A DNA stretch of 64,000 nt from Flammeovirgaceae bacterium (GTDB lineage Bacteria > Bacteroidota > Bacteroidia > Cytophagales > Cyclobacteriaceae), in NCBI GenBank assembly GCA_021299455.1, contig JAJTGQ010000032.1:1-64000 (forward strand). Reading direction: 5' to 3'. The translations under genes and the position numbers were made by a program. Below are positions 44,373-50,048 of the stretch, in pieces (position 1 is the first letter of the stretch; the number at the start of each line of letters is the position of its first letter). Below the pieces are notes generated by a model that had not been told where the DNA came from, did no database searches, and was given only the letters and a program-made list of their open reading frames with translations.

Positions 44373-45938
44373 ATGGAAATAATCGTAATTGCCTCTATTG
44401 CCACTCTGGCTACTGTATTACTAAGCCTGGTAATCGGTTCGCTCATGGCGAAGAGAAAAATCAAAAAGAACGAACAGGCTGCTGGTGAAAAAGCAAAGCT
44501 GATCATTAAGGAGGCGGAGATTCAAGCAGAAAACATCAAAAAAGACCGGATTATTGATGCCAAAGAAAAACTGCTGAAGATGAAGCAGGAGTTTGAAGAA
44601 GAAGCCAACCGCAAGAAAAACCAAATCATCAGTAACGAACAAAAGATCAAACAACGCGAAGCTCAAATTTCAAAAGAGCTGGAAACGTTGAAAAAGAAAG
44701 AGGGCGAGGTGGACGAAGAAAGACAAAGCCTTGCGCGCCAACACGAGTTAGTAAAAAGCAGAAAAGAAGAGCTCGACAAATTCAACGCGCAGAAAGTGGC
44801 AGTATTGGAGGGCATCTCTAAACTGTCGGCAGATCAGGCGCGAGACCAATTGATTGAATCCATGAAAGAAGAAGCGCAAACAAAGGCGAGTTCTTATATC
44901 AAGGAAATCATGGAACAGGCAAAATTAACGGCTACGAAAGAAGCCAAAAAAATTGTCGTGGAAACCATCCAACGCACTGCAACAGAGCATGCGGTGGAAA
45001 ATTGCGTCTCGATTTTCAATATCGAAAGCGATGATATCAAAGGAAAAATAATTGGTCGTGAGGGCCGAAACATTCGAGCACTCGAAGCCGCGACTGGTGT
45101 AGAGTTTATTGTGGATGATACGCCTGAGGCCATCATTATTTCTGGGTTTGATCCGGTAAGAAGAGAAATTGCCAGACTCTCATTACACCGATTGGTGCAA
45201 GACGGCCGAATACACCCAGCCCGAATTGAAGAGATTGTAGCAAAGACAACTAAGAATATTGAAGACGAGGTATTAGAAATTGGCGAACGCACCGTAATCG
45301 ATTTAGGTATTCACGGTCTTGCCCCTGAATTGATCAAGATGGTCGGCCGCATGCGCTACCGCTCTTCATATGGACAAAATTTATTGCAGCACTCACGCGA
45401 GGTAGCGAATCTTTGCGCGATCATGGCAGCAGAACTTGGCTTGAACGTTAAGCAAGCAAAACGTGCCGGACTTCTACACGATATCGGCAAAGTATGGCCT
45501 GAAGAATTAGAAAAGCCACATGCTATTGTGGGAATGGAACTGGCCATCAAGTATAAGGAACATCCAATCATCTGCAATGCCATTGGGGCTCATCATGATG
45601 AAATTGAGATGACGAGCATCATCTCTCCCATCGTTCAATCGTGCGATGCTATCTCTGGCGCCAGACCGGGTGCAAGACGAGAGGTGATGGAGCAATACAT
45701 CAAGCGTCTAAAAGATCTGGAAAATGTAGGATTAAGTTTTGAAGGGGTAGAAAAGTGTTATGCCATTCAGGCTGGGCGCGAGTTACGCGTGATGGTAGAT
45801 GCAGAGAAAGCAACCGATGAACGTGCCTCACAACTTAGCTTCGATATCTCGCAAAAGATTGAAAAAGACATGCAGTATCCGGGGCAAATAAAAGTAACGG
45901 TGATTAGAGAAATGAGGAGTGTAGCCTACGCGAAGTAG
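44373..45938 (+). CDS. rny: Ribonuclease Y
   Basis: N-terminal TM, KH domain [33 protein letters not shown] domain [21 protein letters not shown]...GLLHDIGKV. Confidence 0.97.
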
Positions 45939-45993
45939 TGGCAAATAAAATATGAACTAAAGCATTTCAACTACATTTTTCTTATCTTTAAAA

Positions 45994-47139
45994 GTGATTA
46001 TCTCAAAAATTAAGCTTAAAAACTGGAAGAACTTTCAAGATGTGGACATCTCGCTCAAGGATAGAGTCTTTGTCGTGGGACCGAATGCTGCTGGCAAAAG
46101 TAATTTTCTTGATGCTTTTCGTTTTCTTAGAGATATTTCAAAACCCGGTGGAGGGTTACAAAAAGCTGTTACTGATCGTGGCGGTATCTCAAAAATAAGA
46201 TGTTTAGCAGCGCGCAGATACCCTGATGTAGAACTTGAAATTTCTTTGTCTGAGTTTGGAAGTGATTTGCCAGATTGGAAATATGCCATCGGAATTCGAC
46301 AAGAATCTAGAGGAAATCGATTACCCTATTTATCCTATGAAAGGGTTTGGAAAAATAAGGAGCTTATCGTTGAAAGACCCGACAAAGAGGATAAAAAAGA
46401 CAATGAACGCCTAACCCAAACCTATTTAGAGCAGATCAATGCAAATAAAGAATTTAGAGAAATCAACAAGTTTCTGGAGAGCGTTCTTTACCTCCATTTA
46501 ATTCCCCAACTGCTAAAACATCCGTCTTCTTTTACAGGTCCCGATCTTCCAGGCGATCCTTTTGGCAAAGGATTTCTTGAAAGAATCTCGAAAGTAAATG
46601 AAAATACGAGAAAGGCTTGGTTAAAAAGAATTGAAAATGCATTACGTTTTGCTGTCCCTCAACTTAAAGAATTGAACTATACCGAAGAAAGTGGCAAACC
46701 ACATCTTGAAGCAATATATGATCACTGGCGTCATGGAGCTGGAAAACAACGAGAAGAGCAATTTTCAGACGGTACACTTAGATTGATCGGACTATTCTGG
46801 TCTCTGCAAGAGGGTAGCGGGCTCCTTCTATTAGAAGAGCCAGAACTTTCCCTGAATGGTGCGATAGTTTCAAAAATACCTGCGTTAATCTATAAACTTC
46901 AAAAGCAAAGGAAAAAACAGATCATTCTTACTTCACATAGTACCGATCTATTGAATGATATCGGAATATCATTGGATGAAATATTGCTTTTAGAGCCGAG
47001 GGCTGAAGGCACACAAATAAAACCAGCAAACAGCTTTCCGGAAATAAAAGCGATGTTAGAAGAAGGAATGACTCCGGGTGCCGCAATTCTGCCAAGAACT
47101 AAGCCTAAAAAAATAAATCAATTAGCACTCGAATTTTGA
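45994..47139 (+). CDS. AAA/ABC-type ATPase (AAA_15/AAA_21, OLD-like), first gene of two-gene cassette
   Basis: FVVGPNAAGKSNFLDAFRFLRDI (Walker A), FSDGTLRLIGLFWSLQEGSGLLLLEEPELSLN (signature + Walker B), IILTSHSTDLLND (H switch). Confidence 0.93.
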   Translation: MIISKIKLKNWKNFQDVDISLKDRVFVVGPNAAGKSNFLDAFRFLRDISKPGGGLQKAVTDRGGISKIRCLAARRYPDVELEISLSEFGSDLPDWKYAIGIRQESRGNRLPYLSYERVWKNKELIVERPDKEDKKDNERLTQTYLEQINANKEFREINKFLESVLYLHLIPQLLKHPSSFTGPDLPGDPFGKGFLERISKVNENTRKAWLKRIENALRFAVPQLKELNYTEESGKPHLEAIYDHWRHGAGKQREEQFSDGTLRLIGLFWSLQEGSGLLLLEEPELSLNGAIVSKIPALIYKLQKQRKKQIILTSHSTDLLNDIGISLDEILLLEPRAEGTQIKPANSFPEIKAMLEEGMTPGAAILPRTKPKKINQLALEF

Positions 47140-47140
47140 A

Positions 47141-47746
47141 ATGATCACGCTGAATTTTGTCTTTGAAGATGATCTGAGCGAGATGGTCATGCTTAAAATT
47201 ATTGACCGATTTAAAGATAAATTTTACATTGGGAACACCTACAATGGCAATGGTTTTGGCTATATCAAGAAAAATATAAAGGGCTTCAATCAAGCTTCTA
47301 AGACGATCCCTTTCTTTGTTTTAACTGATCTTGACCAGTATGAATGTCCATCAGAGTTAATTAACAATTGGCTCAATTCAATTCCGAAAAATAAGAATCT
47401 CATATTTAGAGTAGCGATAAGAGAAATTGAGGCTTGGTTATTGGCTGATCGTGTAGGTTTTTCAAAATATTTAGGGGTCAGTATTGTCCATCTGCCTTTG
47501 TCTCCAGAATCAGAAATGGATGCTAAGAGAAAATTGATTTCAATTGCTGCAAGATCCAGAAATAGATCTATCAAAGAAGATATTACTCCTAAAAACGAGA
47601 ATGCCCAAGTTGGACCAAACTACAATGGCCGACTAGGAGAATACGTTTTCAATCACTGGAATATTGATGAGGCCATGCTAAACTGTGAAAGCTTGAAACG
47701 GGCAGTTCGATGTCTAGAGGTTTTCCAACAAACAGCAATCAAATAA
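47141..47746 (+). CDS. DUF4276 (TOPRIM-like) family protein, second gene of the cassette
   Basis: LNFVFEDDLSEMVMLKII, GFGYIKKNIKGFNQAS, PFFVLTDLDQYECP, FRVAIREIEAWLLADR, EDITPKNENAQVGPNYNGRLGEYV. Confidence 0.87.
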   Translation: MITLNFVFEDDLSEMVMLKIIDRFKDKFYIGNTYNGNGFGYIKKNIKGFNQASKTIPFFVLTDLDQYECPSELINNWLNSIPKNKNLIFRVAIREIEAWLLADRVGFSKYLGVSIVHLPLSPESEMDAKRKLISIAARSRNRSIKEDITPKNENAQVGPNYNGRLGEYVFNHWNIDEAMLNCESLKRAVRCLEVFQQTAIK

Positions 47747-47931
47747 GAAAAATTAACACTTTTGCTCGGTTCTAATTAGGCTGTTAAATGTTCAAAGTTG
47801 ATGACGTTTCATTGATGTATTGCAACGATAACCTTTTTTATTTGCAATATGCAACACCGCTGGCACATAAACTGACTTCACTTTGACCTCTGTTTTAGTA
47901 TTTTGTTAAAATTCTCTAAACTCTGAAAAAC

Positions 47932-49389
47932 ATGAGATTCCTATTAGCATTAGCCCTCTTACTAGCTGGCATTTGCGGACAAGCCCAAAACACTCTTAAA
48001 GTCAATGGAGAAAAAGACAAGCAATTCGCATTGCAAGAATTATCGAAGAAATATCCTGCCTACTCGCAAATCGCCAAACAAATTTGGGGTTATGCGGAGT
48101 TAGGTTTTCAGGAAACCAAGAGCACTACATTATTGCAAGAGACGTTACGGAATGAAGGTTTCGCTATTCAATCAGGTATTGCTGAAATGCCAACTGCCTT
48201 TCTGGCATCGTTTGGATCTGGCAAGCCGGTGATTGGAATCTTAGCGGAGTTCGATGCATTGCCTGGTCTTTCTCAAGACAGTGTACCTGTTAGAAAGGCT
48301 CTTATTGAAGGAAGAGCTGGTCATGCGTGTGGTCATAACCTGTTTGGGACTGCGTCAACAGCGGCCGCCATCACATTGAAAGACTGGCTCACTAAAAATA
48401 AAAAATCAGGAACCATTAAGTTATTCGGAACACCGGCAGAAGAAGGTGGTGGCGCAAAAGTGTATATGGTGCGCGATGGGCTGTTCAAAGATGTTGACGC
48501 TGTGTTGCACTGGCATCCGTCAAACAAAAATGACGCTAGTCCTGAGTCATGCATGGCGATCAAGCAAACCTTATTTAGGTTTTACGGCCGCTCGGCACAT
48601 GCCGCAGCCGCGCCCGAAAAAGGCAGATCTGCCTTGGATGCTATAGAGGCCATGAACTATATGACTAACATGATGCGTGAACATATGCCATCAGATGCAC
48701 GCATACACTATGTAATCACCAAAGGAGGAATGGCCGCAAACGTAGTTCCCGATTTTGCAGAAGTTGAATACATGGTGCGACATCCTGATGCACGCGTGCT
48801 GGCAGAACTGTGGGATCGTATTGTTAAATGTGCCGAGGGGGCAGCCACTGGAACAGAGACTTCGATGAAATATGAAGTCATCTCAGGTTCATTTAATCTC
48901 ATGCCCAATGAAACGCTATCTCACTTAATGTATGACAACTTGAAGAAAGTAGGCGGTGTAAATTACTCAGCTGAGGAAACTGAGTTTGCAAAAAAAATTC
49001 AATCAAGTTTTAATTTTAAGGCACCTGATCTAAATCAAGCACAACAAATAATGCCTTTTCATCTGGGAGGATTTTTTCCAGCCTCAACAGACGTTGGAGA
49101 CATCACGTGGGTAGTTCCTACAGCAGGGCTTGGTGTTGCCGCTTGGGTTCCAGGCGTTCCACCTCATTCCTGGCAAGCGGTGGCTTCCGGTAGCAATGGA
49201 ATTGGATTAAAAGCAATGTCGAATGCTGCAAAAACGTTGACCATGACGGCTATTGATTTATTTAACAATCCTGAATTGGTAGAAAAAGCAAAAAAAGAGT
49301 TGCTTGAAAAAATGGGAGTAGGATTCCAATACAAATCACTCATCGGAGATCGTAAACCGCCTCTTGATTTTAGAAAGGGAATGCAATAA
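47932..49389 (+). CDS. M20 family amidohydrolase (AbgB/amidohydrolase type, secreted)
   Basis: AELGFQETKST, AEFDALPGLSQDS, GRAGHACGHNLFGTAST, FGTPAEEGGGAKVYMV. Confidence 0.92.
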   Translation: MRFLLALALLLAGICGQAQNTLKVNGEKDKQFALQELSKKYPAYSQIAKQIWGYAELGFQETKSTTLLQETLRNEGFAIQSGIAEMPTAFLASFGSGKPVIGILAEFDALPGLSQDSVPVRKALIEGRAGHACGHNLFGTASTAAAITLKDWLTKNKKSGTIKLFGTPAEEGGGAKVYMVRDGLFKDVDAVLHWHPSNKNDASPESCMAIKQTLFRFYGRSAHAAAAPEKGRSALDAIEAMNYMTNMMREHMPSDARIHYVITKGGMAANVVPDFAEVEYMVRHPDARVLAELWDRIVKCAEGAATGTETSMKYEVISGSFNLMPNETLSHLMYDNLKKVGGVNYSAEETEFAKKIQSSFNFKAPDLNQAQQIMPFHLGGFFPASTDVGDITWVVPTAGLGVAAWVPGVPPHSWQAVASGSNGIGLKAMSNAAKTLTMTAIDLFNNPELVEKAKKELLEKMGVGFQYKSLIGDRKPPLDFRKGMQ

Positions 49390-49468
49390 GCAACGTTTAA
49401 AATGCTTATGACTTAGCTCCCTTTTTCCAGAACATACTTTTTGACGTATCCGTTTTGATTGTTACATT

Positions 49469-49487
49469 TATACCAAGAATTGGTATA
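49469..49487. promoter_or_regulatory. Perfect palindromic operator-like site upstream of parDE
   Basis: TATACCAA-GAA-TTGGTATA, 17 nt upstream of the antitoxin ATG. Confidence 0.65.
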
Positions 49488-49503
49488 TCAAAAATCCAAA
49501 AAT

Positions 49504-49746
49504 ATGGGTAAAAATACATCCGTGCTACTCGGGGATCATTTTGAAGAATTCGTTGACAGCAAGGTAGCTTCCGGTAAATATAGCTCAGCTAGCGAGGTAA
49601 TTCGGACAGCTTTACGTCTATTAGAATCCGAGGAACAAAAAGTAAAAGAACTAAAAAAAGCGCTCACCGTTGGTGAGAAGAGTGGATTTGTCAAGAAATT
49701 TGATTCGAAGGAACATCTAAAAAAGATGCACGATAAATTTCGATGA
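49504..49746 (+). CDS. ParD-type ribbon-helix-helix antitoxin
   Basis: MGKNTSVLLGDHFEEFVDSKVASGKYSSASEVIRTALRLLESEEQK. Confidence 0.92.
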   Translation: MGKNTSVLLGDHFEEFVDSKVASGKYSSASEVIRTALRLLESEEQKVKELKKALTVGEKSGFVKKFDSKEHLKKMHDKFR

Positions 49747-50048
49747 AAAGAAAAGCTTATAAGATTAGTAACCAAGCGCTAATCGACCTTGAGCAAATCT
49801 GGCTATACACTTTTGAAAACTGGTCTATTGAACAAGCCGACCGATATTATAATCTACTTATTAGTGAGATGGAGTATATCAGTCAAAACCAAGACAGCGG
49901 AAAGTCAATGAGTCATATTAAATATGGATATAGAGCTTCCAAAGTAAAATCTCATCTTATTTTCTACAAAACATCAAGCGAATCAGAAATTGAAATAATT
50001 AGAATTTTGCATGAGAGAATGGATATCGAAAACAGATTGAAAGAATAG
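49743..50048 (+). CDS. ParE/RelE-type toxin
   Basis: KISNQALIDLEQIWLYTFENWSIEQADRYYNLLISEMEYI...EIIRILHERMDIENRL; 4-nt overlap with antitoxin. Confidence 0.92.
   Translation: MKRKAYKISNQALIDLEQIWLYTFENWSIEQADRYYNLLISEMEYISQNQDSGKSMSHIKYGYRASKVKSHLIFYKTSSESEIEIIRILHERMDIENRLKE

Follow-up and report, generated by a model that had tools for sequence, protein, structure and literature searches.

The window, a stretch of 64,000 nt at the start of a contig from a Flammeovirgaceae bacterium, carries an ATPase gene and a small partner gene lodged between the gene for RNase Y (rny) and that for an M20 hydrolase, and this locus raises the question of what the pair does and how it came to stand there. 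The first-pass annotation had proposed a defence or genome-maintenance system made of an ATPase and, 1 nt downstream, a DUF4276-type protein of 201 aa. Both open reading frames were found as described, on the same (+) strand and separated by 1 nt, with the ATPase gene at 45994..47139 (381 aa, GTG start) and the partner gene at 47141..47746 (201 aa, ATG start). Comparison with PADLOC models placed them in HEC-01, a family already catalogued among defence candidates, a status which that annotation had overlooked. The ATPase matched the HEC-01A model PDLC04180 with an E-value of 1.3e-158 (profile positions 1-380 of 382) and the partner matched the HEC-01B model PDLC04194 over nearly its full length (E 3e-65); an A-model match, a B-model match and adjacency were thus all present in the window. 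Pfam searches assigned the ATPase to AAA_21 (E 3.7e-36) and linked the partner to DUF4276 with an E-value of 9.3e-5, a match under the curated cut-off for that family. The pairing is obligate and far exceeds what chance would give, HEC-01A being located directly 5' of HEC-01B, in the same order, in every locus where both genes were readable. The pair is a real, intact and mobile HEC-01 module.

HEC stands for Hma-embedded candidate, the name being derived from an arrangement flanked by HmaA and HmaB. Antiviral activity has been reported for some HECs (PMC12988326), and HEC-04, an ATPase fused to a TOPRIM domain, was reported to be active (PMC12111858). HEC-01 is named in PMC12724379 merely in a list of predicted systems; our literature search found no paper testing HEC-01 itself or giving its mechanism, and the search for DUF4276 returned none. 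As a side observation on the PADLOC-DB models, the labels of PDLC04143 and PDLC04144 look swapped, since PDLC04144, labelled HEC-01B, matches ATPases and PDLC04143, labelled HEC-01A, matches DUF4276-type partners.

The motifs expected of an ABC/OLD-type ATPase were all present in HEC-01A, as initially annotated, and their core residues were invariant or nearly so among 23 homologues. They comprise the Walker A motif GPNAAGKSN (aa 29-37, 46078..46104, with G29, N31, G34 and K35 invariant), the ABC signature FSDGTLR (aa 257-263, 46762..46782, with S258, D259, G260 and T261 invariant), the Walker B motif LLLLEEPE (aa 277-284, 46822..46845, with L279, E281, E282, P283 and E284 invariant) and the H-loop TSHS (aa 313-316, 46930..46941, with H315 and S316 nearly invariant), all on the (+) strand. 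PDB fold matches of the ATPase model were PtuA, Rad50, GajA and SMC heads. GajA is the related ATPase of Gabija, but the HEC-01 pair has neither the fused TOPRIM nor the UvrD-like helicase partner (GajB) of that system. Membership in Gabija was rejected on these grounds, the 381-aa ATPase being devoid of a fused TOPRIM and the gene downstream of the pair encoding the M20 hydrolase.

The partner had been described as TOPRIM-like on account of its acidic motifs, and this proposal gained support from both conservation and structure prediction. Over 27 homologues of HEC-01B, the positions that correspond to the TOPRIM motif, defined as a glutamate, a glycine after strand 2 and a DxD (PMC6755086), were conserved almost without exception: E9 (47165..47167) and G38 (47252..47254) were invariant (27/27 each), and in the D63-L-D65 triplet (47327..47335) the first aspartate was found in 27/27 and the second in 26/27. 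A further invariant glutamate, E97, belongs to an E95-x-E97 motif (47423..47431), a candidate second metal site located where the helical part begins. By this position, E97 resembles E508 of the Bp OLD protein, which is part of the described second-metal site (T506-x-E508; PMC6755086), and is a candidate for the same role as metal ligand. Similarly, K129 (47525..47527), a lysine in 15/18 close and 1/9 distant homologues, may act in the role of the Bp OLD catalytic lysine K562. These five features all lie on the (+) strand.

The AF2 model of HEC-01B, a confident one (pLDDT 95.1, pTM 0.90), was compared with the PDB by Foldseek, and the best five matches were without exception Toprim regions from the C-terminus of Class 2 OLD proteins (prob 0.77-1.00, E 2e-3 to 4e-2, TM 0.39-0.53), with the Toprim domain of RNase M5 at rank 15. 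Sequence searches of the PDB with HEC-01B gave nothing meaningful. The motifs and the predicted fold fit a TOPRIM protein, yet the best E-value (2e-3) is modest and the TM-score about 0.5, and the wording was kept at 'TOPRIM-like' because of these values. The resemblance to Class 2 OLD thus covers the closest solved fold as well as the E, the G, the DxD and the additional invariant E. In OLD, however, ATPase and Toprim form one polypeptide, while HEC-01 consists of two genes, and membership in Class 2 OLD was rejected since the window holds two separate open reading frames.

The genomic neighborhoods of homologues were informative as to the kind of system involved. In an alphaproteobacterium (locus L040), the gene order HmaA - HEC-01A - HEC-01B - HmaB was found, so that the embedding which gave the family its name was encountered there and not at the window locus, where the pair stands alone in the gap after rny while sharing with catalogued HEC-01 both genes, their order, their spacing and the best-scoring models. 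At the same locus (L040:4526-16012), HmaB precedes a second HEC-01A/B pair, which belongs to a different subtype, and then a third HEC-01A, several units being gathered at one Hma locus. Elsewhere (L052), the HEC-01 pair is preceded by the two genes of a type III RM system, for methyltransferase and restriction, and by an OLD-like ATPase spread across two reading frames. Two more distant members were located beside other candidates, one next to PDC-M30/M41 and type IIG RM-like genes (L166) and the other next to WYL and NsnB-like genes (L164). Several other HEC-01 homologues sit among ordinary genes, and in the window the sole defence neighbor of HEC-01 is a ParDE pair 2 kb away. Of the two functions initially put forward, defence or conflict is the one favored by the homologues within Hma, beside type III RM genes and beside other candidates.

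HEC-01 itself being a known family, what is new here is the exchange slot after rny, which the first-pass annotation had also missed. The slot is bordered on the left by rny (44373..45938, +), present in 57/59 congeners searched, and on the right by the gene for the M20 peptidase-family hydrolase (47932..49389, +; Pfam Peptidase_M20, E 8.8e-11). In the window it is filled by an acquired cassette (45939..47832, +). In three close relatives (G010, G012 and G080) the gap between rny and the M20 gene is contiguous and, according to the empty-site alignments, without the cassette. Among 63 congeneric genomes, a family search identified three with a close HEC-01B match, namely the window genome (G000), its sister species G067 and G077, and all three copies are located directly 3' of rny. 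This patchy distribution, together with the empty sites, differs from strict vertical conservation of the pair at the rny-M20 locus, which would have counted against the initial reading; nor did any other refuting condition that was checked hold. Further weak HEC-01B matches, from distant members, occurred in G025 and G074, with no rny in the flanks that were read. In G077 (contig C2, L137), the HEC-01 ATPase gene was broken, with two frames and an internal loss, next to an intact-looking HEC-01B; this could be either decay or an assembly error.

The same gap is occupied in two other congeners by a different system. In G025 it holds an AbiLi-like ATPase (E 6e-63) together with a partner that matches DUF3226 (E 2e-9) and AbiLii (E 1.8e-5), and in G036 a pair homologous to it, 71% and 55% identical, directly follows rny. 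The pairs of these two congeners lie at L045:7164-8856 and L091:5557-7257, the latter on the (-) strand. The congener search found this AbiL-like slot ATPase in G025 and G036 only, and neither HEC-01 nor an AbiL-like pair was present in the other 38 congeners in which the slot was read. AbiL and HEC-01 are alike in being two-gene systems made of an ABC ATPase and a small TOPRIM-type partner. They differ in that their ATPases resemble each other only in short motif stretches (BLASTP E 0.014) and in that the AbiL partner belongs to another family, DUF3226; hhalign gave no significant profile match between HEC-01B and the AbiL-like partner (probability 3.7%). The window pair was rejected as a member of AbiL, the AbiLi model scoring far below the HEC-01A model on the ATPase (E 5.6e-25 against 1.3e-158 in PADLOC) and AbiLii giving no match. 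The history of the slot requires at least two separate insertions. For the copies within each family, common inheritance and losses can suffice, and five independent events are not claimed.

A second gap, between the M20 and MFS genes, was found to harbor the ParD/ParE toxin-antitoxin pair (49459-50048 in the window). ParDE was also found in this gap in G025 and G067 and was absent from it in G010, G012 and G080; two neighboring gaps therefore both gain and lose modules. Scans for consensus promoters and terminators found such signals no more often than in shuffled sequences. A Bacteroidota -7-like TAnnTTTG/A box was seen 5' of the ATPase gene in G000, G025 and G077 and not in G036, a signal too weak to use.

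Traces of recent exchange were visible between the window and sister species G067. Both share a tract of low divergence (45396..47832, +) made of the last ~540 nt of rny and the cassette. Mismatches between the two genomes amounted to 30/1894 in the cassette and 282/5436 in the flanks, the associated Fisher p of 4e-13 being indicative only, given the mosaic character of the region and the dependence between neighboring sites. Divergence drops stepwise inside rny (45395/45400) and rises once more at 47833, just past the right edge of the cassette (47832). This pattern fits a recent exchange by recombination, for which the 3' end of rny would have served as one homology arm. On a broader scale, HEC-01A of an alphaproteobacterium and that of a genome from the window's own phylum are 71% identical, and therefore the family moves across phyla. 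Searches for the partner in viral contigs and phage records, and for both proteins in plasmid records, found nothing, hence no mobile carrier is known.

Taken as a whole, we consider it probable that the pair, a mobile cassette lodged behind rny, is a two-gene HEC-01 immune module whose ATPase restrains and then activates a TOPRIM-like nuclease, stopping phage growth. Most likely, HEC-01A would oligomerise, sense a cue of infection and hold HEC-01B in check. Triggering of the ATPase would release or activate HEC-01B, a putative small metal-dependent (two-metal) nuclease, which would then cut nucleic acid, either DNA or tRNA, and keep the phage from growing, probably sacrificing the cell. We infer the trigger, the nuclease activity, its substrate and the abortive outcome by analogy. 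This model of an ATPase restraining a nuclease was favored because of the analogy with PARIS and AbiL: in PARIS, the TOPRIM nuclease is silenced by the ATPase and set free only when a phage protein acts as trigger (PMC12409363), and AAA ATPases have been reported to neutralise TOPRIM_OLD toxins, AbiL being a relative design (PMC10440598). HEC-01 would accordingly resemble PARIS and AbiL in the way it works, while tests of layout and score place it outside PARIS, Gabija and OLD.

The alternative that survives best, albeit an unlikely one, is that of a selfish addiction module of the toxin-antitoxin type, with HEC-01B as the toxin and the ATPase as the antitoxin, which would ensure its own maintenance and respond to no specific phage trigger. 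The compact two-gene operon, the neutralisation of TOPRIM_OLD toxins by AAA ATPases and the ParDE pair in the neighboring gap are consistent with it. However, ATPase/TOPRIM toxin-antitoxin pairs are themselves suspected Abi systems, and the homologues embedded in Hma or associated with RM genes are more in keeping with immunity.

A bolder proposal, which we regard as quite improbable, takes the rny gap as a dedicated exchange slot of this genus for ABC-ATPase/TOPRIM-type immune pairs of different families, swapped by homologous recombination via the conserved 3' end of rny, and takes the position itself as functional: the modules would share rny transcription, or would keep watch over RNase Y, or over the RNAs it produces, as a host process sensitive to phage. 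A link of HEC-01 to rny was tested outside the genus and was not found, relatives in other genera being located elsewhere than beside rny.

That the pair might be a divergent PARIS (AriAB), guarding against anti-restriction proteins by cutting tRNA, seems very unlikely. PARIS has the same layout, with a separate ABC ATPase and a small TOPRIM protein, and AriA models did match the ATPase (E 5e-31), but the HEC-01A model was ahead by >400 bits in PADLOC and AriA was missing from the 50 best fold matches of HEC-01A. HEC-01B is of DUF4276 type, and membership in PARIS was rejected with no AriB model among its matches. Least likely of all is a DNA repair or genome-maintenance housekeeping pair linked to RNase Y, the other function initially suggested, for which the Rad50/SMC-like ATPase fold and the constant position of close copies after rny within the genus would speak, but which is disfavored by the absence of the pair from about 95% of congeners, by the relatives in other genera away from rny and by the broken ATPase gene of one congener (L137).

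With the pair read as a HEC-01 immune module, the locus offers a compact two-gene example of this family, with sister species in which the site is cleanly empty or cleanly filled. Conservation and the structural model assign a TOPRIM-like character to the DUF4276-type partner and single out residues for mutation. Finally, the presence of two different ATPase/TOPRIM-type systems at one position makes the rny slot a small natural experiment in the turnover of defence cassettes outside large islands.
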